Below the pieces are notes generated by a model, which saw only the letters and a program-made list of their open reading frames with translations, searched no databases and had not been told where the DNA came from. A stretch of DNA of 47,216 bases from a virus, in the IMG/VR virus record IMGVR_UViG_3300045925_000054, positions 1-47,216 of that record. The stretch is one strand, 5' to 3'. Shown here one piece after another: positions 4,785 to 47,216 of this stretch. The first letter of the stretch is position 1, and every line of letters begins with the position of its first letter. Made by a program: the position numbers and the translations under genes.

Positions 4785-6398
4785 ATGATGCGTCGACTAC
4801 TGATCGCGGGTCTGCTGTCGCTGCTCCCTGTGTCCGCATACGCACAGACGATGGTCGAGATCCCGCCGGGGCAGGCGTGGCAGCCGATCATCAACAAGGC
4901 GCCGGCGGGCTCGACGTTCGTGATCAAGGCCGGCGTCCATCGGATGCAGCAGATCACGGCGCGTACCGGGGACACCTTCCTCGGTGAGACGCAGGGCGGC
5001 ATCCTGCTCGCGATCGTCTCCGGCGCGAAGGTCCTCGACGGCTGGCAGCGTGACGGGAGCGCGTGGTTCGTCACCGGGCAGACGCAGCAAGGACAACGCC
5101 TCGGCGGCGTCTGCTGGTCGACGCATCCGCGGTGCGACTACCCCGAGGATCTGTTCTTCGATAACGTGATGAAGAAACACGTCGCCTCGCGCGGGCAGGT
5201 GGGCGCCGGGACGTGGTTCTTCGACTACGCGGCCGATCGGATCTACGTCGGCGACGATCCATCGGGCCGCGTCGTCGAGACGAGCGTGACGCCGAATCTC
5301 TTCCACCTGAGCGCGGCGTCGCGCGTCACAGTCGACCGGCTGATCGTCGAGAAATACGCGGCGGCGAGTGGGACGAGTGCACTCAGCATCGGCGCGTCGG
5401 CGTCTGGCGGCGTCGACTGGTCAGTGCGGAATTCGATCGTCCGGTGGAATCACGGCGGCGGCATCGGCACCGACTCGAGGACGTCGGCGATCAATAACCT
5501 CGTGCACCATAACTGCGGGTTCGGGTTCACCGGCGCAGGGTCGGACATTCTGATCGAGGGCAACGAGATCGCGTACAACAACATCGCCGCGGGCGCGACG
5601 GTCACGAGGTGGAGCGCAAACGGCTCGGATGGGACCTGCGGCTATAACTCCTACTGGGGCGCCGGCGGATCGAAATGGGTGTGGACGACGAATCTGATCG
5701 TCCGGAACAACCGATCCCATCACAACGACGGGCCAGGCCTCTGGACGGACATCAATAACATCGGCACGCTCTACGAGCAGAACGTCGCCTTCGAGAACGC
5801 GCGATCAGGCATCTTTCACGAGATCAGCTACGACGCCGTCATTCGGAAGAACACGCTCAAGCGGAACGGCCTGTCGCGCGACTACCCGTGGTGGACGACG
5901 AGTGCGGGCATCGAGGTCACGAGCTCGCGGAACGTCGAGGTCTACGAGAACACGCTCGAGGACAACTTCCAGGGGATCACCGGACTCAACGATCATCGGG
6001 GCGCCGGCGAGTACGGACCGTGGACGCTGATCAATCTGCTGGTGCACGGTAATGTGATCACCTACACGACCGAGCCGGCCGCCGGCACCGGGCGTACTGG
6101 GGTGATCGATAGCGCGAACCTCGACGCCTTCAGGCCGCAGGCGAACAACCGCTACACGAACAACGGCTATACCCGCGGCGGCGATTTCCTCTGGCTCAAT
6201 CAGACAATGTCGAAGGCGACCTGGCACGGGCAGGGGATGGACGTCGAGAACGCGACCGGCGGAACGGCGCCGCCAGGCATCGTCGCTCGAGTGACGGACC
6301 TGATCGCTGTCACGTTCTACGGGTCGTATGCCGCGGTGGCACTGTCGCTGCTCGCTGGGATCTTTTGGCTCACACGAGATGCGCACGACAGGAAGTGA
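4785..6398 (+). CDS. Exported, membrane-anchored parallel beta-helix protein
   Basis: 537 residues. ATG 4785 was chosen because it has AAAGGGGA upstream and starts a textbook Sec signal peptide: MMRR, a Leu/Ala core and an A-Y-A/Q cleavage site near residue 20. The body has right-handed parallel beta-helix repeats typical of the pectate-lyase-like superfamily, with recurring N-N-x-x-x-x-N-x-G/S turns such as 'IRKNTLKRNG' and 'VEVYENTLEDN'. The last ~30 residues contain one hydrophobic membrane segment ('AVALSLLAGIFWL') followed by a charged end, so the protein probably sits in the host envelope with its helix outside. That is unlike a virion tailspike. It may be a polysaccharide-active enzyme or a surface-altering protein; substrate unknown. 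Confidence 0.75.
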   Translation: MMRRLLIAGLLSLLPVSAYAQTMVEIPPGQAWQPIINKAPAGSTFVIKAGVHRMQQITARTGDTFLGETQGGILLAIVSGAKVLDGWQRDGSAWFVTGQTQQGQRLGGVCWSTHPRCDYPEDLFFDNVMKKHVASRGQVGAGTWFFDYAADRIYVGDDPSGRVVETSVTPNLFHLSAASRVTVDRLIVEKYAAASGTSALSIGASASGGVDWSVRNSIVRWNHGGGIGTDSRTSAINNLVHHNCGFGFTGAGSDILIEGNEIAYNNIAAGATVTRWSANGSDGTCGYNSYWGAGGSKWVWTTNLIVRNNRSHHNDGPGLWTDINNIGTLYEQNVAFENARSGIFHEISYDAVIRKNTLKRNGLSRDYPWWTTSAGIEVTSSRNVEVYENTLEDNFQGITGLNDHRGAGEYGPWTLINLLVHGNVITYTTEPAAGTGRTGVIDSANLDAFRPQANNRYTNNGYTRGGDFLWLNQTMSKATWHGQGMDVENATGGTAPPGIVARVTDLIAVTFYGSYAAVALSLLAGIFWLTRDAHDRK

Positions 6399-6517: not shown

Positions 6518-6697
6518 ATGAGTAACTTCCTCGAGGCGATCGTCGAGCAGAACCGACGGCTCCGTCTGGCGCTGGTGACGATCCGCGATGTGCCGGGGAT
6601 CGACGTCGAGCGGCTCAGGCAGATCGCGCGCCGGGCGCTCGAGGACGCCGGCGAGGACGCTCGGATTCTCGAGATCAAGGGGGAACGATGGCTCTAA
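6518..6697 (+). CDS. Small helical hypothetical protein
   Basis: 59 residues, high in Leu, Arg and Glu; predicted to be almost entirely helical with a heptad-like pattern in 'LEAIVEQNRRLRLAL' and 'LRQIARRALEDAGED'. No family recognised. It overlaps the downstream two-TM gene by 10 bases, so the two are probably co-translated. By position it may belong to the lysis or membrane group, for example as a partner of the small membrane protein, but that is inference only. Confidence 0.55.
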   Translation: MSNFLEAIVEQNRRLRLALVTIRDVPGIDVERLRQIARRALEDAGEDARILEIKGERWL

Positions 6698-6828
6698 CGA
6701 TAGTCGGTCTGTTGGCGCTGGCGGCCTTCGTCGTGGCGATCGCGTCGGCGCTCGGCAAGGCGCCGCTCTGGGTCGCGGTGCTCCTGCTCTGCCTGATCGC
6801 ACTCCTGCAGGCGATCCCGGTCCGCTGA
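6688..6828 (+). CDS. 46-residue two-TM membrane protein (holin-like)
   Basis: ATG 6688 preceded by AAGGGGG at a good distance; stop TGA at 6826-6828. The peptide has two hydrophobic stretches, about residues 3-22 and 27-43, joined by a short G-K-A-P turn, and almost no soluble part. This is the architecture of small class II-like holins and of many uncharacterised phage membrane peptides. It overlaps the upstream helical gene and faces the convergent minus-strand gene at 6855. Holin is the leading guess; no endolysin partner could be identified. Confidence 0.6.
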   Translation: MALTIVGLLALAAFVVAIASALGKAPLWVAVLLLCLIALLQAIPVR

Positions 6829-7213: not shown

Positions 7214-7259
7214 TGGTGAGCCGGGGGGGAATCGAACCCCCAACCCGCAGATTAAGAGT
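7214..7259 (-). other. attP core: 3' half of tRNA-Lys(CUU)
   Basis: Read on the minus strand, 7259-7214 gives an anticodon loop CTCTTAA (anticodon CTT, Lys), the 3' strand of the anticodon stem, a variable loop GGGTT, a perfect 5-bp T-arm (GGGGG/CCCCC with loop TTCGATT), the 3' acceptor strand CCGGCTC, discriminator A and encoded CCA. Upstream of the anticodon loop the sequence cannot form the anticodon stem, so only the 3' half is present. This is the usual identity segment that restores a host tRNA on integration, and the integrase gene ends 63 bases away. Confidence 0.87.
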
Positions 7260-7322: not shown

Positions 7323-8600
7323 TTACGCACGTAGCTGGGCCCCGGATTTGTTCGGGTTCGCGCGGGTTTTCGCGGCGTGGTCCTGTACTTTTCCCTGTAC
7401 AGCGTCCACTAATTGCACCTTCGATCCGAGCCGCTCGAGGGGTGCGGTTTTCGCGAGCGCGGCGAGGTGCGTGTACTTCTTCGTGGTCGCTGGTGACAGG
7501 TGTCCCATCACGAGTTGTCGGACCGCGTCGCCTTCGCCCCACTCGGCCAGCATCGTGGCCATCGAGTGCCGGATCGAGTGGAACGTCACGCCGCGCTTCA
7601 CGCCGTAGTGAAACCGGTGCGCCTTGGGGAGCGTGGCACTGGCACGCGTCGCCGCGGCGCTGAGCGTCGTTTCGAGACGGTGCACGCGCTCGCCGAAATA
7701 GGCGACGACATACTTGCGGCGAGGATGCGTCTTCCTCGCCCACGTCAGGATCTCGTGGAGCTCCGGCGACACCGGGATGATCTGCGGCCGTTGCGTCGCC
7801 GCGGCCGTCTTATGCCGTTTCACGACGATCCGTGTCAACTCGGGATTGAGGTGCACCTTCCACTGCAGATCGAGGATCGACTCCAGCCGGAGCTCTGGGG
7901 CGTAGACGGCGATCGCCATCGCCAGGCGCGCGTGCGGCGCCGCGGCGGCGATCCAGGCGCGCAGCTGCTCCACCGTCAGTACGGCATCACGCTCCGGCAC
8001 GACGTCGCGCTCAATGTCGCGAAACGGATTCACGCTGACCTTCGTCTTTGCGCGGAACGCCGGCAGGAGCGCGGTGCGGTACATCATGCTCATCGCGCTG
8101 CGATAGTGATTCTTCCGCGGGCCGCTCAACGTCAGCGACGTCATCCAGTCTTCGAAGCGTTCGATCCAGTCCGGATGCGTGATCGGATCTGCGAGCCGGA
8201 GGTCGTGATACGGCGCCGACTCGGCGCGCGCGCGAGCGGCGGCGACGGACTTGCGCCACTGCGGCTTCGCCTTCGTCGGGTCCGGGAGTGTCGCCGGACG
8301 CTTGCCGAAAAACTGCAGCACGAGGCGCAGCGTGTCTTGGACGACGTCGAGCCGTCGCACCCTCCCCTTCTTCCGGACGTACTTCAGATGCTCGAAGGCC
8401 CAGGAGGAAAAGCTCGGCGTCTGCGTGCGATCGAAGGGCGCGATGCCGTGCGCGTCCTGGCGCACGCGCTCCATGATCTTCCCTTCGACGATGTCCGCGT
8501 CTTGCTTTGACAGCTGCCCCGTCGTGCCGGTGTGACGGCGGCCGTCCCACCAGAAGTCGTAGCGAAACGTCTTGCCACGCGGGTGTCTGAACGTGGTCAC
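7323..8600 (-). CDS. int: Tyrosine recombinase (phage integrase)
   Basis: 425 residues. The catalytic domain carries R238 (in 'LRLESILDLQW'), a Lys-containing beta hairpin near 261-264, H341-x-x-R344, H367 and the nucleophile Y376 ('GHLSPATTKKYTHL'), the full set of the tyrosine recombinase family. The N-terminal ~60 residues look like an arm-binding domain and 62-185 like the core-binding SAM-like domain. The gene ends beside an attP with tRNA-Lys identity. Start GTG at 8600 overlaps the TAG of the upstream exported-protein gene by one base, so integrase is probably made from the lysogenic transcript by translational coupling. Confidence 0.95.
   Translation of the reverse strand: MTTFRHPRGKTFRYDFWWDGRRHTGTTGQLSKQDADIVEGKIMERVRQDAHGIAPFDRTQTPSFSSWAFEHLKYVRKKGRVRRLDVVQDTLRLVLQFFGKRPATLPDPTKAKPQWRKSVAAARARAESAPYHDLRLADPITHPDWIERFEDWMTSLTLSGPRKNHYRSAMSMMYRTALLPAFRAKTKVSVNPFRDIERDVVPERDAVLTVEQLRAWIAAAAPHARLAMAIAVYAPELRLESILDLQWKVHLNPELTRIVVKRHKTAAATQRPQIIPVSPELHEILTWARKTHPRRKYVVAYFGERVHRLETTLSAAATRASATLPKAHRFHYGVKRGVTFHSIRHSMATMLAEWGEGDAVRQLVMGHLSPATTKKYTHLAALAKTAPLERLGSKVQLVDAVQGKVQDHAAKTRANPNKSGAQLRA
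7381..7400 (+). repeat. Candidate integrase arm-type sites, right arm
   Basis: TCCTGTAC (7381-7388) and TCCCTGTAC (7392-7400) match the three repeats left of the attP core in sequence and orientation. They lie inside the 3' end of the integrase gene, as arm sites do in several phages. Role inferred. Confidence 0.5.
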
Positions 8601-9100
8601 TACTCACGTCCGAGCGTCTTGAGCGCGTCGAGTTGCTGCTGCTCACAGGCGTTCCGCATCGTGAAATTTTGTGGGAACATCTTGAGGCATTCCCGTCGAA
8701 TGGTCGCACGATCTCCGCTCGCCATCTGTCGGGCCGTGAGAGCTCGATAGGCATCCTGTTGCTGCGTACGACACGCGGCCTGCATCGTGAAGTTCGTTTC
8801 GAACATCTTGGCGCATTGGGCGTTGATCTGCGCGGTCGCGTCAGACGAGGACTCCGTGTCGTCCTTACCGGTGGACCTAGAAAACGTCTGCGTGCTCTTC
8901 GTAAGTTCCAAGTCGATGTCACTGAGTGGCACCGTGATACGCGTGCCAGAGCGCAACGTGATCGTCACGTTCCCGTTGAGCGGCTCGCCAAAAGAGGCCA
9001 TCGTCGGCCCGACCCTCAAAACGATGATGAGATTCTGGGCGGAGACGTCGGTGGCAATCAGGACCACGCCAGCGACCATGGCGAGTCGGGGGAGTCGCAT
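8600..9100 (-). CDS. Exported protein with two Cys-paired repeats (lysogeny-linked)
   Basis: 166 residues. ATG 9100 has AAGGAGG seven bases upstream. A Sec signal peptide (hydrophobic core then S-A-Q near residue 22) is followed by a beta-rich domain ('NGNVTITLRSGTRITVPL') and two tandem 30-residue repeats at 92-121 and 134-163. In each repeat two Cys are spaced 14 apart (C96/C110, C138/C152) around a K-M-F-x-x-N-F-T-M core and a Q-Q-x-D-A end. The gene lies between repressor and integrase on the lysogenic strand, so it may be expressed in the prophage and act in the periplasm, for example in superinfection exclusion or lysogenic conversion. Family not recognised. Confidence 0.75.
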   Translation of the reverse strand: MRLPRLAMVAGVVLIATDVSAQNLIIVLRVGPTMASFGEPLNGNVTITLRSGTRITVPLSDIDLELTKSTQTFSRSTGKDDTESSSDATAQINAQCAKMFETNFTMQAACRTQQQDAYRALTARQMASGDRATIRRECLKMFPQNFTMRNACEQQQLDALKTLGRE

Positions 9101-9309
9101 CACGAAACCTCCTTCAATAAATCATTTATAAGTTCTTCAACGAGTTCGGCGGCGACTGGTCTGAGTGCGTGCAACCGCGCGGCCTTCTCGGCCACGGACG
9201 GCAACGTCAAAGAGCGACTTCGCAAGGGCTTGAACTTCACCCCATTTAGCTTTGAGATCTTCGAGTTCTTGTTCGAGTCCTGCGATGCGACGAGCCGAAG
9301 CTGGGACAT
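9100..9309 (-). CDS. Small protein overlapping the repressor 3' end (or its shifted C-terminus)
   Basis: 69-residue frame overlapping the repressor gene out of phase. ATG 9309 has AGGGAGG eight bases upstream. Its last 35 residues ('ARLHALRPVAAELVEELIND') use strongly G/C third positions and look like a natural helical protein end, while the repressor frame in the same stretch becomes Arg-rich and poor. Its TGA overlaps the ATG of the exported protein gene (TGATG). Either it is a true overlapping gene, or a one-base insertion has separated the original repressor C-terminus from its body. Confidence 0.5.
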   Translation of the reverse strand: MSQLRLVASQDSNKNSKISKLNGVKFKPLRSRSLTLPSVAEKAARLHALRPVAAELVEELINDLLKEVS

Positions 9310-19522: not shown

Positions 19523-19770
19523 CCTGTCCGAAGTGCGGCGGCAAGACCGGCGTCTACGGCACACGGGGCCCGCACCGGTACCGGTGCTGCATCAGCGCCA
19601 CGTGTGGGCACAAATTCCGCACGCGCGAAGTCCTCTTTGACGAGAAACCGTCCATTACTGGACAGCGCCCAAAATTAGCCACCAAAACAGCCGAGCGACC
19701 TGCGCACACTACAACGCATGCGACACAGCCTGCTGCGTTTGGTCGTGGCGGTGCTCTGTCTCGCGACTGA
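19519..19770 (+). CDS. Zinc-ribbon protein (Ogr/NrdR-like N-terminus)
   Basis: 83 residues. C3-P-K-C6 and C23-C24...C29 around 'RYRCCISATCGHKF' form a zinc ribbon similar to those of Ogr/Delta late activators and NrdR. The basic tail is probably disordered. Position just before late-type genes makes a transcription role possible, but ribbons are also used in other contexts. The 3' end overlaps the exported-protein gene by 53 bases. Confidence 0.65.
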   Translation: MTCPKCGGKTGVYGTRGPHRYRCCISATCGHKFRTREVLFDEKPSITGQRPKLATKTAERPAHTTTHATQPAAFGRGGALSRD

Positions 19771-20266
19771 CGTCCTCGCAGCTGGCCCTGTTCCCGCCCA
19801 GCAGATCACCTGGCTCCAGCCGAACACCTCGGCGACCACGGCGCAGGGCTACACCTACACCCTGACCCTCACCGAAGAAGGCAAGGCGCCGCGCGACATT
19901 CCGGTCGCGAGCGTCCTCTGCGGCGGTCTGACGATCCACGCGGAATGTGCGGTCGCGCTGCCGGCCTCCGCTGAGCCAGCCATCATCAGCGGGAACGTCA
20001 GCGTCCTGCGGGCTCTGGATACGGCATTCCCCACGGATCCGACGTCGAGCCTCCCGTTTACCGGCGATCAAGGGTGCATCTTCCGGACGCTGCTGTATGC
20101 GCTCAATGAGCGCGGCACCGCACAGTCGAATAAGCAAAATCTCACGGCGGTCTACGCCGAATTCCAGACGGCGAAGTTCCGGCACGTCCGGACCCAGCCA
20201 CTGCCGAAGGGCAACCAGTTTCAAGTCATCGGCGACTGTGCCGGCCAGATCGTGCCGTGGCCCTGA
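19718..20266 (+). CDS. Exported Ig-like protein with four conserved-looking cysteines
   Basis: 182 residues. Sec signal peptide (residues 1-28, ending V-P-A-Q) with cleavage before 'QITWLQPNTSATTAQGYTY', an immunoglobulin/fibronectin-like first strand. Mature-protein Cys at 68 and 77 plus two near the end ('GDQGCIF', 'GDCAGQI') could form disulfides in the periplasm. No ribosome site is visible and the start overlaps the preceding gene. Possible envelope-acting factor; not recognised. Confidence 0.7.
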   Translation: MRHSLLRLVVAVLCLATDVLAAGPVPAQQITWLQPNTSATTAQGYTYTLTLTEEGKAPRDIPVASVLCGGLTIHAECAVALPASAEPAIISGNVSVLRALDTAFPTDPTSSLPFTGDQGCIFRTLLYALNERGTAQSNKQNLTAVYAEFQTAKFRHVRTQPLPKGNQFQVIGDCAGQIVPWP

Positions 20267-20283
20267 TGACGCGAGGAGTACGA

Positions 20284-20967
20284 ATGCGACGTGTTGCTGC
20301 TCTGATGGTGCTCTTACTGGTCGCGGTGGACGCGGTGGCTCAGACGTCCTACCCCGCACCCTATCCGGCGGGGATGCGCGTACAGGTCGCACAAGCGGCG
20401 CTGGCTCGGAATACGCCGTCGCTGACGGGGACCTGCGGGGCCGATAACCATCCCTGCACGGCGGTCGACGCCATCTTGCCAGGGGTCTTCGGTGTGGTGC
20501 TCACCGATGCGCCGGTGCTCGACGCGGCCGGCTTCTGGTGGCTCCGCGTGACGTTCGATACACAAGTGACGGGATGGGTGTCGGCCTATCCGCCCTTTCT
20601 GATCACGCTCACTCCGCCGGAAATGATCGCCGGGTCGAGTTTCCGCATCGCGGCGGATTACACAGGCCCGCCGTTGACGGCTGGGCGATGTCTCTATGAC
20701 GGGTTGCAGGTCACGGCCACACTGGCACTACAGCCAAGCGGGACGAGTGTCAGCGGCACGATTCAGTGTGCCGTCTGGGACAAGCCTCCGGTCGGGAATC
20801 ACATCGCGGTCGTGCAGGCGATCAATCTCGGCAAGGACGGCGCCACGCAGACGACGCCGAGCACCGAGTTCCAGTTCATCGTCACGGACTCACCGAAGCC
20901 GCTCCCTCCGACCGCGCCATCGAATCTCCGGATCGGTCCGGTGACGGCGCCGACTGTGAACAAGTGA
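20284..20967 (+). CDS. Exported protein with SH3-like and Ig-like domains
   Basis: 227 residues; GAGGAG six bases before ATG 20284. Signal peptide to residue ~20 (A-V-A-Q). Residues about 30-101 resemble a bacterial SH3 domain ('GMRVQVAQAALARNTPSL', 'FWWLRVTFDTQVTGWVSAY'), a cell-wall-binding module. Residues 105-200 are an Ig-like beta sandwich and the end is a Pro-rich linker stopping just where a fibronectin repeat would start. Together with the exported gene upstream it may modify or guard the host envelope; it could also contribute to cell-wall binding during lysis. Confidence 0.72.
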   Translation: MRRVAALMVLLLVAVDAVAQTSYPAPYPAGMRVQVAQAALARNTPSLTGTCGADNHPCTAVDAILPGVFGVVLTDAPVLDAAGFWWLRVTFDTQVTGWVSAYPPFLITLTPPEMIAGSSFRIAADYTGPPLTAGRCLYDGLQVTATLALQPSGTSVSGTIQCAVWDKPPVGNHIAVVQAINLGKDGATQTTPSTEFQFIVTDSPKPLPPTAPSNLRIGPVTAPTVNK

Positions 20968-29490: not shown

Positions 29491-29520
29491 CTGAGCATGG
29501 ACGGCGATCCCCATGCTCAG
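29491..29520 (+). promoter_or_regulatory. Hairpin covering the protease-capsid start codon
   Basis: CTGAGCATGG (29491-29500) is exactly complementary to CCATGCTCAG (29511-29520), with loop ACGGCGATCC; G-T and two further pairs can extend it. The ATG start (29513-29515) is inside the 3' arm and there is no good ribosome site, so the structure probably limits initiation of the full-length fusion. Confidence 0.65.
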
Positions 29521-31480
29521 TCGGGCGTTTTCCGTTCTCACGGTCAAGTCGATCGACGAGGATCAGCGCATCATCCGCGGCGTCGCGACGACGCCCGAAG
29601 CTGACCGGATCGGCGACATCGTCGAGCCGCTCGGCGCCATCTTCAAGAATCCCCTCCCACTGTTGCTGTTCCACAAGGCCGACAAGCCGGTCGGGACGGC
29701 GGTCTTCGATACGCCCACGAAAAAAGGCATCGAGTTTACGGCGAGCCTGCCGCGGATCAACGAGCCGGGCACGCTGAGAGACCGCGTCGAGGAAGCCTGG
29801 CAGTCGCTGAAGGCCGGCCTGATCCGCGGCGTCTCGATCGGGTTCAACGCGCTCGAGGACGGCGTCGAGCTCCTCAAGACCGGCGGCCTCCGGTTCACGA
29901 AGACCGAGATCCTCGAACTCTCACTCGTTACGGTGCCGGCGAACGCGTCGGCGTCGATTCAAACGATCAAAAGCATCGTCGCCGAGCAATTCGCCATGCC
30001 TGCGCGAAACGCTCGCGGCTCTTCCTCGTCCGGTGCCTCGGACACATCTCGAAGGACTGGACCGATGAAGAAAACGATCGCGGAACGGAAGCAGGTCTGC
30101 GTCGCCGAGAAGGCGGCCAAAGTCGCGCGCATGAATGAACTCATGGGCGAGGACGACGGCGCGACACTCGACGCGGCCGGGCAGGAAGCATTCGCCACGC
30201 TGACCGACGAGATCAAGGCGATCGACGATCAGCTCGCGCGTCTCGAGACGCTCGATCGTGTGACTCGCGAGTCGGCGGTCGTCGTCAAAGGGGGGACTCC
30301 CGAGGAGGCCTCGACGGCGCGGTCGACGCAGACGTCGCGCGTGATCACGTTCAAAGAGAACCTGCCGCCCGGGTATCAGCTCGCGCGCGCGGTCATCTGC
30401 AAGATCAACGCGTACATCAATCACGTCAACGCGTACGAGGTGGCGAAGGGACTCTTCCCGAGCGACACGCGCGTGCAGGAATACCTCCGGCCGCAGTACC
30501 AGCGTGGCACCGTCGCGGCTGGCACGACCACCGACACGGACTGGGCGACGGCGCTCGTCGATCCGACGAACCTCGCGAGCGAGTTCATCGAGTATCTGCG
30601 TCCGATGACGATCGTCGGGAAGTTCGGGACCGGCGGCATTCCGGCGCTGCGGAACGTCCCGTTCAATGTGCGCATCGTCGGCCAGACGACGGGCGGGACG
30701 GCGAACTGGGTCGGCCAGGCGAAGCCGAAGCCGCTCACGAAGTTCCACTTTGCGCCGACCACGCTCACGTGGGCGAAGATCGCCGCGATCTCGGTCATCT
30801 CCGACGAGCTCGCGCGGTTCTCGGTGCCCGGCGCGGAAGGTCTCGTCCGCGATGCCCTGTCGGAGACGATCGTCGAGAAGATCGATACCGACTTCATCGA
30901 TCCCGATGTCGCGGTCTCGGCGGACGTCTCGCCGGCGTCGATCACGAACGGCGTCACGCCACTTTCGTCTGCGGGCACGTCGGCGGATAACATCCGCTCG
31001 GACATTCAGAACCTGCTCGAGCAGTTCATTCTCAATAACCAGCGGGTGACCGGTCTCGTGCTGATCATGCCGGAGACGCTGGCACTCGCCGCGTCGATCA
31101 TGGTCAACGACCTCGGGCAGCGGGAATTCCCGGACCTCGAAGTCGGCGGCGGTCGTCTGCTCGGGATCCCGGTCATCACGTCGCAGTATGCGGCGGACGA
31201 AGGGACACACGGGAACCTGCTGATCGCGGTCAACGCGCGCGAGGTCTTCCTGTCCGACGACGGGCAAGTCTCGATCGACGTGAGCCGCGAGGCCGCACTC
31301 GAGATGCTCGACACCGGGTTCACGCAAAGTCAGCCGACCGGCGCGTCGCTCGTGTCGCTGTGGCAGAACAACTTGCTCGGCATCAAGGCGGAGCGCTACA
31401 TCAACTGGAAGAAGCGGCGCGCCGAAGCCGTGTCGTACATGGACGACGTGAACTGGGGCAGCGTAGGCAGCCCGGCGTAG
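29513..31480 (+). CDS. Prohead protease-major capsid protein fusion (HK97-like)
   Basis: 655 residues in one frame. Residues 1-155 are an HK97 prohead protease (S78/U35 type): H54 in 'LLLFHKADKPVGTA', S108 in 'IRGVSIGFNALEDG' and E135 in 'EILELSLVTVPANA'. A Ser-rich linker leads to a coiled-coil delta/scaffold region (about 185-270) and an HK97 capsid fold ('TDWATALVDPTNLASEFIE' in part; 'VLIMPETLALAASIMVND' near 530). M185 (base 30065) has GAAGGA eight bases upstream, so free scaffold-capsid can be made internally. The gene follows terL directly and precedes portal, reversing the usual portal-protease-capsid order. Confidence 0.92.
   Translation: MLSRAFSVLTVKSIDEDQRIIRGVATTPEADRIGDIVEPLGAIFKNPLPLLLFHKADKPVGTAVFDTPTKKGIEFTASLPRINEPGTLRDRVEEAWQSLKAGLIRGVSIGFNALEDGVELLKTGGLRFTKTEILELSLVTVPANASASIQTIKSIVAEQFAMPARNARGSSSSGASDTSRRTGPMKKTIAERKQVCVAEKAAKVARMNELMGEDDGATLDAAGQEAFATLTDEIKAIDDQLARLETLDRVTRESAVVVKGGTPEEASTARSTQTSRVITFKENLPPGYQLARAVICKINAYINHVNAYEVAKGLFPSDTRVQEYLRPQYQRGTVAAGTTTDTDWATALVDPTNLASEFIEYLRPMTIVGKFGTGGIPALRNVPFNVRIVGQTTGGTANWVGQAKPKPLTKFHFAPTTLTWAKIAAISVISDELARFSVPGAEGLVRDALSETIVEKIDTDFIDPDVAVSADVSPASITNGVTPLSSAGTSADNIRSDIQNLLEQFILNNQRVTGLVLIMPETLALAASIMVNDLGQREFPDLEVGGGRLLGIPVITSQYAADEGTHGNLLIAVNAREVFLSDDGQVSIDVSREAALEMLDTGFTQSQPTGASLVSLWQNNLLGIKAERYINWKKRRAEAVSYMDDVNWGSVGSPA
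30051..30067 (+). promoter_or_regulatory. Internal ribosome site and start for capsid-only product
   Basis: GAAGGA (30051-30056) is 8 bases before ATG 30065-30067, in frame with the fusion gene and exactly at the start of the delta/scaffold region. It would give a ~471-residue capsid precursor without protease, so the protease-containing form could be kept minor. Confidence 0.6.
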
Positions 31481-37407: not shown

Positions 37408-37952
37408 CGGCCGAGGCCTTCGCCGTGCGTGCGCACACGATCCCCTACGTCCGGAAGGGCGTCTGGTATTCCGAGATCTATCTCTTCCTGTCGTGCTGTC
37501 TCAATGCCGGGGTGACGCTGGTCGTGGAGTCGGGCGTCAAGTACGGCATGTCGACGCGCCTGCTCGCCGCGACGTTCGGCGGGCCGGTGATCTCGATCGA
37601 CCGGGACTTCGAGATCGAGGCGCCGGAGCGCGTGCACTTCATCGCCGGCGACGTCCAAGAGATCCTGCCGCGGGTGCTCGCCGAAGCCCGGCGTCAGACG
37701 ATCGGGTTGCTGATCGATGGACCGAAGGACGCGATCGCGATCGCGCTGAAGGACGCAGCCTTCATGTATCCGCACGTCGCCGTCGTCGGCGTGCACGATC
37801 TCGACGCCTCGTGTGGCGCGGACTTTCATAGCCACGCCGAAGGGTTCCGGGCGACCTATGGGCGGGCGCTCGACCTCCCAGTGATCGAACCGTACGCGAG
37901 CAAGTATCCGGACGGGCCCGGGATCGGCGTCTGGGTGCGGAGGGCGGCATGA
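37404..37952 (+). CDS. SAM-dependent methyltransferase-like protein
   Basis: 182 residues, ATGA overlap. Class I methyltransferase Rossmann pattern: 'VVESGVKYGMSTRLLA' (motif I, residues 41-55), 'VISIDRDFE' (motif II) and 'IGLLIDGPKDAIAIALK' (motif IV-like). It resembles sugar-O-methyl or cephalosporin-hydroxylase-like phage enzymes that act on glycans. In this cassette it may methylate a sugar added by neighbours. Confidence 0.72.
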   Translation: MTAEAFAVRAHTIPYVRKGVWYSEIYLFLSCCLNAGVTLVVESGVKYGMSTRLLAATFGGPVISIDRDFEIEAPERVHFIAGDVQEILPRVLAEARRQTIGLLIDGPKDAIAIALKDAAFMYPHVAVVGVHDLDASCGADFHSHAEGFRATYGRALDLPVIEPYASKYPDGPGIGVWVRRAA

Positions 37953-38692
37953 GGGAGCTCACGCTGATCCTGCCGTACTACAGGAATGCCGGGATGCTGC
38001 TCGAGCACTTTCGGACCTGGCGCGCGTATCCGTGCGATCTCAAATCGCGGTTCCACGCGATCGTCGTCGACGACGGATCGCCGGAGCACGTCGCGAAGAA
38101 GTGCATCGAGCCGACCGGGATCGCCTCGTTCCGCCTGTATCGGATCGAGGTCGACGTCCGGTGGAACTGGCTCGCCTGTCGGAACCTCGGGGTCGACCAG
38201 GCGCGCACGTCATGGGTCCTGCTCACCGACATCGATCACCTGCTGCCGGAAGGGACGCTGCGACGCCTGGTCTACGGCGAGCTCGACCCGGCGACGGTCT
38301 ACCGGTTCTCGCGAGTCGACGCGCCATACGCGACGCCGTACAAACCGCATCCGAATTCGTGGCTGCTGACACGCGGCATGTTCGACGCGATCGGCGGCTA
38401 CGACGAGCGGTTCTCGGGCTACTACGGGACCGACGGCGAATTCCGCGATCGCGTGCAGGCGACGGCGCGCGTCGAGATGCTGCCGGAGCCGCTGATCCGT
38501 GTGCCGCGCGACGTGATCGCGGACGCGTCGACGACGACCTACGGCCGGAAGGAACAAGGCGACAAGGTCAACGTCGCGAAGATCCGCGCCGAGCGCGGGG
38601 CGCTCAAAGAGTGGCGGCCGCTCCGGCTGACGTTCCCGTGGTCGCATCAGGTGACGGTCCTCCCGCCGGTCGAGGTGCCGCAGGCGTGCTGA
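37949..38692 (+). CDS. Family 2 glycosyltransferase
   Basis: 247 residues. GT-A fold with 'LTLILPYYRNAGMLLEHF', D-D-G-S at 41-44 ('IVVDDGSPEHV'), D94-x-D96 ('VLLTDIDHLLPEG') and an acceptor-site 'IGGYDERFSGYYGTDGEFRD'. This is the standard inverting GT2 arrangement. It overlaps the next glycosyltransferase by 7 bases. Confidence 0.87.
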   Translation: MRELTLILPYYRNAGMLLEHFRTWRAYPCDLKSRFHAIVVDDGSPEHVAKKCIEPTGIASFRLYRIEVDVRWNWLACRNLGVDQARTSWVLLTDIDHLLPEGTLRRLVYGELDPATVYRFSRVDAPYATPYKPHPNSWLLTRGMFDAIGGYDERFSGYYGTDGEFRDRVQATARVEMLPEPLIRVPRDVIADASTTTYGRKEQGDKVNVAKIRAERGALKEWRPLRLTFPWSHQVTVLPPVEVPQAC

Positions 38693-46177: not shown

Positions 46178-47216
46178 ATGCCTCCCCCTGCCAGTTACGT
46201 CGACATCGATACGATCCCCTTCGCGGCCGTCGTGACGCAGGCGGCCTTTAACGTCGCGAACGAGCGATGGTTCCGTCTCGTCCTCGCGTCCGATGCCGTC
46301 GCCGGGTTCTTCACGGAGATCGGGGGGACCTTCACGCCGCGGTATGACCTCTTCGAGGACGACGGATCGACGCTCGTCCGGACGATCAATAACGCCAACA
46401 ATAACGCCTGGAACTTCCCGCTCGAGTCGGGGACCTACTACCTGCAGGTGCGGAAGTTCGGGGGCGGCGCCTCGAACTTCGACTTTACCTTCCACGCCGA
46501 CACGCGGCCGCTCGACGGGTTCACGGTGCCGGAGGACGCGATCGTCATCAATGACGATACCGGGCTGTTTCCGGCGACCGTGATGCAGATGGACGGGACC
46601 GTCGTCGGGTATCTGCGGATGCCGGCGGGCGAGATCGGCGGGTCGCTGCCGACGGGCGAGTCGATCTGGCAGGATCGCTTCGGTCGGCGCGCGGCGTCGG
46701 GGACGCTGGCCGTCTTCGACAATACCGGCGCCTATGTCGACTCGACGTCGCAGACGTTTTCGGACTTCCCGATCCCGGTCTCGATCACGGGCTCCGATAC
46801 CGACTTCTATGCACACGAGCCGACGACGGGCAACGTCTATCGCATCACGACCGCGGGCGCGGTGACGCTCGTCGCCACGATTCCGCAGGCGACAGCGATC
46901 GGCGTCTCGGCGGACGGGACGGTCCTCTACTACGTCGACGCGACGGACTACCTGACGCTCTTCGACGCCAGCGATAACGTGATCCACCGCTGGGATCTGG
47001 TCAACGACGAGGCCGATCCGGACTTCTACACCTACGCGGGACTCGCGACCGACGTCGGCGGCCTCGCGGTGACGGCAAACTTCTGGCCGGCCGAGATCCT
47101 CGAGCTCCCGGACGGCTCCGTCGTCACCTGGGCGCGGAACGAGGACGACGCCGAAGACGTGCTGCTCCACATCTCGAGCGGCGGCACGCTCCTGCACTCG
47201 TACACCTACGCACACG
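46178..47216 (+). CDS. Beta-propeller-like tail protein, N-terminal part (continues at 1-480)
   Basis: 346 residues are encoded before the window ends; of these 304 precede the repeated 127 bases, and with 1-480 the full protein is 463 residues. N-terminal domain of about 110 residues is beta-rich ('RYDLFEDDGSTLVRTINNAN', 'GTYYLQVRKFGGGASNFDFT') and resembles carbohydrate-binding or pre-peptidase-like modules. From about residue 180 come repeated 'ITGSDTDFYAHEPTTGNVYR' and 'IGVSADGTVLYYVDATD' blades typical of six/seven-bladed propellers. Probably a tail-tip receptor-contact protein. Confidence 0.8.
   Translation, partial: MPPPASYVDIDTIPFAAVVTQAAFNVANERWFRLVLASDAVAGFFTEIGGTFTPRYDLFEDDGSTLVRTINNANNNAWNFPLESGTYYLQVRKFGGGASNFDFTFHADTRPLDGFTVPEDAIVINDDTGLFPATVMQMDGTVVGYLRMPAGEIGGSLPTGESIWQDRFGRRAASGTLAVFDNTGAYVDSTSQTFSDFPIPVSITGSDTDFYAHEPTTGNVYRITTAGAVTLVATIPQATAIGVSADGTVLYYVDATDYLTLFDASDNVIHRWDLVNDEADPDFYTYAGLATDVGGLAVTANFWPAEILELPDGSVVTWARNEDDAEDVLLHISSGGTLLHSYTYAH
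47090..47216. repeat. Terminal direct repeat, right copy
   Basis: Identical to 1-127. The tail gene frame is the same in both copies, so the two ends are the same locus. Confidence 0.93.

Follow-up and report, generated by a model that had tools for sequence, protein, structure and literature searches.

The window analysed here, the 47,216 nucleotides of IMG/VR record IMGVR_UViG_3300045925_000054, is a phage genome of 47,089 bp, complete and either circular or permuted, because its ends carry a 127-bp exact repeat (1-127 and 47090-47216) and their junction is crossed by two other contigs. Terminase, portal, fused protease-capsid, major tail protein, tape measure and integrase genes were recognised, and the phage is a temperate siphophage. 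A single 655-aa ORF (29513-31480) fuses the prohead protease to the major capsid protein. Read through the junction, the tape measure gene is followed by two genes, by genes for a 463-aa protein, a 569-aa hub-like protein and two fibre-like proteins, and then by those for a 110-aa TM protein, the exported beta-helix protein considered here (P0001), a 59-aa protein and a 46-aa protein, ahead of a convergent gene (Table 1); the labels hub-like and fibre-like were given from position and composition alone. A sequence-only reading of this locus had set P0001 between fibre genes and tiny membrane proteins. The neighbours do match this description, whereas their fibre character is a matter of composition only, and the two fibre-like genes upstream of P0001 have no family match.

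The P0001 gene is one of the last in the late tail operon, and 11 bp separate it from the preceding stop. It begins with ATGATG, with AAGGGG upstream, and its GC3 of 0.85 is of the coding type; a scan limited to promoters of the E. coli type showed no promoter-like site for this gene alone. A second IMG/VR contig carries the gene with 100% identity, and a search for phages sharing its neighbouring genes gave only near-copies of the same phage. A related phage from another sample (L098, IMGVR_UViG_3300045967_000031; 96-98%) is represented by a contig that ends before the beta-helix gene. Elsewhere in the window, a family-2 glycosyltransferase gene (37949-38692), the second carbohydrate-active gene of the phage, lies between the head and tail genes, and three more products have signal-peptide-like starts and no family found (19718-20266, 20257-20967 and, on the minus strand, 8600-9103).

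Table 1. Features of P0001 and its surroundings, with positions in the window.
Feature	Position	Strand	Remarks
110-aa protein, one N-terminal TM segment	4441..4773	+	same operon, upstream of P0001 gene; no family match
GH120-like exported beta-helix protein P0001	4785..6398	+	537 aa
Sec signal peptide of P0001	4785..4844	+	predicted cut after A20 (AYA/QT); sequence reading and rule-based scan
Right-handed parallel beta-helix of P0001	4848..6245	+	residues 22-487; Pfam and AlphaFold
Insertion in P0001 helix	5037..5294	+	about residues 85-170
Loop 265-292 of P0001, beside predicted active site	5577..5660	+
D322 of P0001	5748..5750	+	aligns with XylC nucleophile D382
E346 of P0001	5820..5822	+	aligns with XylC acid/base E405
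C-terminal TM segment of P0001	6306..6374	+	residues 508-530, then RDAHDRK
59-aa protein	6518..6697	+	no family match
46-aa hydrophobic protein, two candidate TM segments, holin-sized	6688..6828	+
Probable attP	7214..7258	-	45 bp identical to 3' half of tRNA-Lys(CTT) gene
Tyrosine integrase	7323..8600	-

From the sequence alone, P0001 had been described as a Sec signal followed by a beta-helix and a C-terminal TM segment. The first two elements are confirmed and are not the product of chance. Direct reading of the N-terminus reveals two arginines, an uncharged hydrophobic stretch and A-Y-A ahead of Q21, and a rule-based signal-peptide scan is also positive there. The beta-helix is matched by PF13229 (E=3.4e-14) and appears in an AlphaFold2 model with a mean pLDDT of 85, in which 362 residues score at least 90 and the core lies above 90. 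The third element is probable. Residues 508-530 form the most hydrophobic stretch of the protein, 23 residues long with a basic tail at its end, and are equalled by 28 of 5000 composition-matched shuffled 50-mers (0.6%). Their approximate apparent insertion energy is +0.7 kcal/mol, i.e., moderately hydrophobic, and the AlphaFold2 model has low confidence in this region. No such segment was found in any of 45 relatives, making it unique among the 46 proteins. We consider it likely that this segment serves as a membrane anchor.

Used alone as a query, P0001 had no match in the genome scan, hit a single phage-collection record (36%, covering one quarter of the protein) and retrieved 13 plasmids, mostly from Azospirillum (37% over 82%). 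An alignment-based search extended the family to 7 more viral contigs (6 distinct) and 357 genome places. The relatives, which share the conserved motifs GGxK, HxNxGxGLWTD and HEISYDA, are mostly secreted bacterial proteins, in support of the earlier placement of P0001 on the host envelope. A simple rule assigns signal peptides to 5 of the 7 distinct viral members and to about 27 of the 38 cellular members, and recognises none in the sister phage proteins L010 and L011. The signal peptide of P0001 is inherited from the cellular family. It is thus not the phage peculiarity it had been taken for, and what is really unusual about P0001 is its C-terminal anchor, together with the altered pocket described below. 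Nothing direct on phage-encoded exported beta-helix enzymes was found in the literature searched.

The gene context of the cellular relatives points to polysaccharide metabolism. In six of the seven cellular neighbourhoods that were read (three orthologous Azospirillum loci, Skermanella, Streptomyces and L111), exopolysaccharide genes adjoin the family member, and the genes found beside such relatives encode glycosyltransferases, O-antigen ligase, sugar transferase and nucleotide-sugar epimerases. In L111, which belongs to the probable host family, the relative is located inside a cluster of glycosyltransferases, a DegT aminotransferase and an epimerase. On the one readable side of L110, a chromosomal relative, polysaccharide genes are absent (the other side is the contig end). 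Together with the conserved catalytic pair discussed below, this context backs the earlier suggestion that P0001 acts on host polysaccharide.

Several family members deserve separate mention. An insertion of 86-96 aa interrupts the helix in nearly all of them and is missing from one viral member (L016, 9773-11026). In two unrelated phages, signal-peptide-bearing relatives lie directly behind fibre-like genes (L013, 9318-11260; L015, 9263-11416). One Acidimicrobiia genome (G008, contig C12, 88277-93389) carries three adjacent family copies, two of them with an internal TAG. Finally, L003 (MT835644.1, 'Bacteriophage sp.') is unannotated and its ORFs are not phage-like at a glance; it is possibly a bacterial scaffold.

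Comparison of folds and active-site columns led to a retaining glycosidase, the GH120 beta-xylosidase XylC, rather than to the pectate-lyase-like families that had been proposed for an active-site search. XylC ranked first by fold for the P0001 model (1.0e-11) and for a separate model of a bacterial relative built from an overlapping alignment (pLDDT 95.8; 8.9e-15, TM 0.65), and was the best PDB match of the family profile of 41 members (3.7e-12); PDB searches with single sequences came up empty, with no XylC match at E<=1. Residue pairs were counted back from XylC 408, where the printed profile alignment ends. In this alignment, D322 and E346 of P0001 correspond to the nucleophile D382 and the acid/base E405 of XylC, and K297, H312 and W320 to K358, H373 and W380. 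E346 and K297 are conserved in 41 of 41 members, D322 in 40 and H312 in 39. In three GH120 enzymes, mutation of the equivalents of the catalytic Asp and Glu abolishes activity (PMC8954004). The helix of XylC also carries an inserted domain (PMC6887791), and both models, as well as the length of the insert, likewise point to a right-handed beta-helix in the P0001 family, into which a putative second domain is inserted. By the available tests, P0001 looks like a GH120-type glycosidase and is a candidate member of that family.

The predicted pocket differs from that of XylC at position 292. In this column (XylC E353), where glutamate prevails among the members, P0001, L010 and L011 have Gly and L014 has no residue, the 'E' of this column being a consensus letter and the alignment being doubtful in four Streptomyces/Kribbella-type rows. 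Just before this position, P0001 carries about 17 extra residues, in loop 265-292, that are unique to it. A glutamate at XylC 353 is not known to be a GH120-defining residue. L110, the chromosomal sister of the phage proteins, keeps it ('HWESGGSKW'); its loss therefore probably came after the split between L110 and the phage clade. Because this glutamate is lost and the adjoining loop has grown, the activity or specificity of P0001 may differ.

Other assignments were rejected. No polysaccharide lyase family was found in Pfam or NCBIfam, and lyases fell below XylC and BT1002 in the fold comparison. For mannuronan C5-epimerase, AlgG reached 12 bits against a curated NCBIfam cut-off of 700 and the profile gave E=0.002. 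For NosD, TIGR04247 reached 17 bits against a cut-off of 300; the looser Pfam NosD cut-off was passed by 4 bits, as beta-helix repeats do.

On the tree, P0001 groups with L010 and L011, from two other phages (support 99/90), and the sister of this clade is L110 (100/99), a 247-aa fragment encoded on a chromosomal Acidobacteriota contig. With three to five label changes required on this tree to account for the viral copies, more than one acquisition by phages is probable. The 45 bases of the probable attP, next to the integrase gene, match exactly an intact tRNA-Lys gene from a genome in the bacterial family that also includes L110 and L111, in a search that covered Acidobacteriota and Alphaproteobacteria and with the caveat that tRNA halves are conserved. 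An alphaproteobacterial host was rejected, with 0 of 240 genomes bearing an att-site match. The host thus likely belongs to the Acidobacteriota and would therefore have two membranes.

Our main reading, to which we give a probability of about one half, is that, late in infection, P0001 works on the exopolysaccharide of the host as an exported, inner-membrane-tethered GH120-type glycosidase. Most likely, its gene was borrowed from bacterial slime-polysaccharide clusters, and the protein trims the sugars of the host surface rather than forming part of the virion. Directly observed are the protein's architecture and family, the way its catalytic pair aligns, its place in the operon and the polysaccharide-cluster setting of its cellular relatives; we infer membrane insertion, catalysis, substrate, timing and benefit as follows. 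P0001 would be produced late, with the tail proteins, and exported by Sec; signal peptidase would cut off the first 20 residues, and the beta-helix would fold in the periplasm. The C-terminal TM segment would then keep the protein on the periplasmic side of the inner membrane and leave its basic tail in the cytoplasm. A glycosidic bond, most likely in the host's own exopolysaccharide or in another envelope glycan during its assembly, would be cleaved with retention, D322 serving as nucleophile and E346 as acid/base. With the slime coat thinned or stopped, progeny would not be trapped at release. Secreted phage endolysins provide a precedent for phages using Sec for enzymes (PMC6116005). Counting against this reading are the identity to XylC of only 12-16% in the fold alignments, the moderate hydrophobicity and low model confidence of the TM segment, the glutamate missing from P0001, L010 and L011 with the adjoining loop insertion in P0001, and the lack of a recognisable signal peptide in L010 and L011. 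In addition, tethered P0001 could reach only the nascent polymer, not the finished coat.

Four alternatives deserve to be weighed against this reading. First, P0001 could be expressed from the prophage and alter a receptor glycan, resulting in lysogenic conversion or superinfection exclusion. The phage is indeed temperate, with its integrase and tRNA-Lys attP, and its family-2 glycosyltransferase raises the prospect of host glycans being modified twice; nevertheless, the tight placement of the P0001 gene within the late tail operon, and the lack of a promoter-like site of its own under E. coli-type models, make this explanation unlikely. Second, the hydrophobic ends could have been misread and P0001 could be a virion tailspike or fibre digesting polysaccharide at adsorption. 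The position of its gene behind fibre-like genes, shared by the relatives in L013 and L015, and the sister proteins devoid of a signal peptide speak for such a role. However, a tailspike is expected to have no export signal and to bear a virion-attachment domain, whereas P0001 combines a textbook signal peptide with an AxA site and a C-terminal TM segment, resembles secreted bacterial proteins over nearly its full length and has no tail-family match in PHROGs, which renders the tailspike role improbable. Third, and with an equally low probability, P0001 may be a soluble periplasmic or secreted enzyme that its C-terminal hydrophobic stretch does not anchor, as the slightly positive insertion energy and the absence of the anchor from all relatives would allow; against this stand the rank of the segment as the most hydrophobic of the protein, its length and basic tail, and the fact that nothing similar occurs in the relatives. 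Fourth, P0001 may be catalytically altered or inactive and only bind glycans. The loop insertion would fit, as would a position-292 glutamate lost by the phage clade and kept by the chromosomal sister, but the retention of the nucleophile, the acid/base, K297, H312 and W320 makes this very unlikely. A direct role in lysis had also been raised. Whether this took the form of an attack on peptidoglycan or of a spanin-like function, no positive evidence emerged, and we regard it as highly improbable: the gene does sit between small membrane-protein genes and no endolysin was recognised among the phage genes tested, yet P0001 has no similarity to peptidoglycan enzymes and its family is linked to exopolysaccharide clusters.

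Polysaccharide enzymes of phages are known mainly as tailspikes working from outside. If the tethered-glycosidase reading is true, P0001 would be a phage enzyme exported by Sec and held at the inner membrane, where it would attack the polymer as it is made. Moreover, the predicted GH120-type catalytic pair provides a testable function for a family of secreted beta-helix proteins that is widespread, uncharacterised and present in the exopolysaccharide clusters of bacteria. In a broader and rather doubtful scenario, the exopolysaccharide clusters of hosts would repeatedly have supplied several phage lineages with secreted enzymes of GH120-like type; in the present phage the enzyme would have acquired an inner-membrane anchor and a remodelled loop at the active site, and would thereby intercept the polysaccharide during synthesis, blocking slime from inside rather than digesting it from outside as tailspikes do.

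Among known systems, XylC of Thermoanaerobacterium saccharolyticum (3VST/3VSU) resembles P0001 in its beta-helix with insert and in the aligned Asp/Glu pair, Lys, His and Trp; it differs in the low identity of the fold alignments and in E353, replaced by Gly in P0001, while export and the C-terminal TM segment are features of P0001. The GH141 enzymes BT1002 and Xyn141E are the second-best fold match, with an E-value at least 3 orders weaker than that of XylC, and have an Asp/Asp catalytic pair (PMC5593877) instead of the Asp/Glu of P0001. Tailspike depolymerases, such as those of Klebsiella phage K64-1 and Dettilon gp208, share the beta-helix fold and a polysaccharide target, but are virion parts without a signal peptide and match the structure less well than XylC. 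The beta-helix proteins of exopolysaccharide clusters (Azospirillum WP_051658436.1, Skermanella WP_203100726.1 and L111) have about 33-45% identity to P0001 over most of the helix and all three conserved motifs; unlike P0001, they have no C-terminal TM segment, mostly keep the position-292 glutamate and are encoded with glycosyltransferases rather than with tail genes. A functional parallel is offered by PslG of P. aeruginosa, which we take to belong to a different glycosidase family from P0001. Like the proposed P0001, this exopolysaccharide-cluster hydrolase is tied to the pathway and occurs both at the inner membrane and in the periplasm; its overproduction lowers Psl output, an example of an inner-membrane-associated hydrolase governing how much polymer a pathway yields (PMC6813494). 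PslG, however, serves the cell, whereas P0001 is encoded by a phage.
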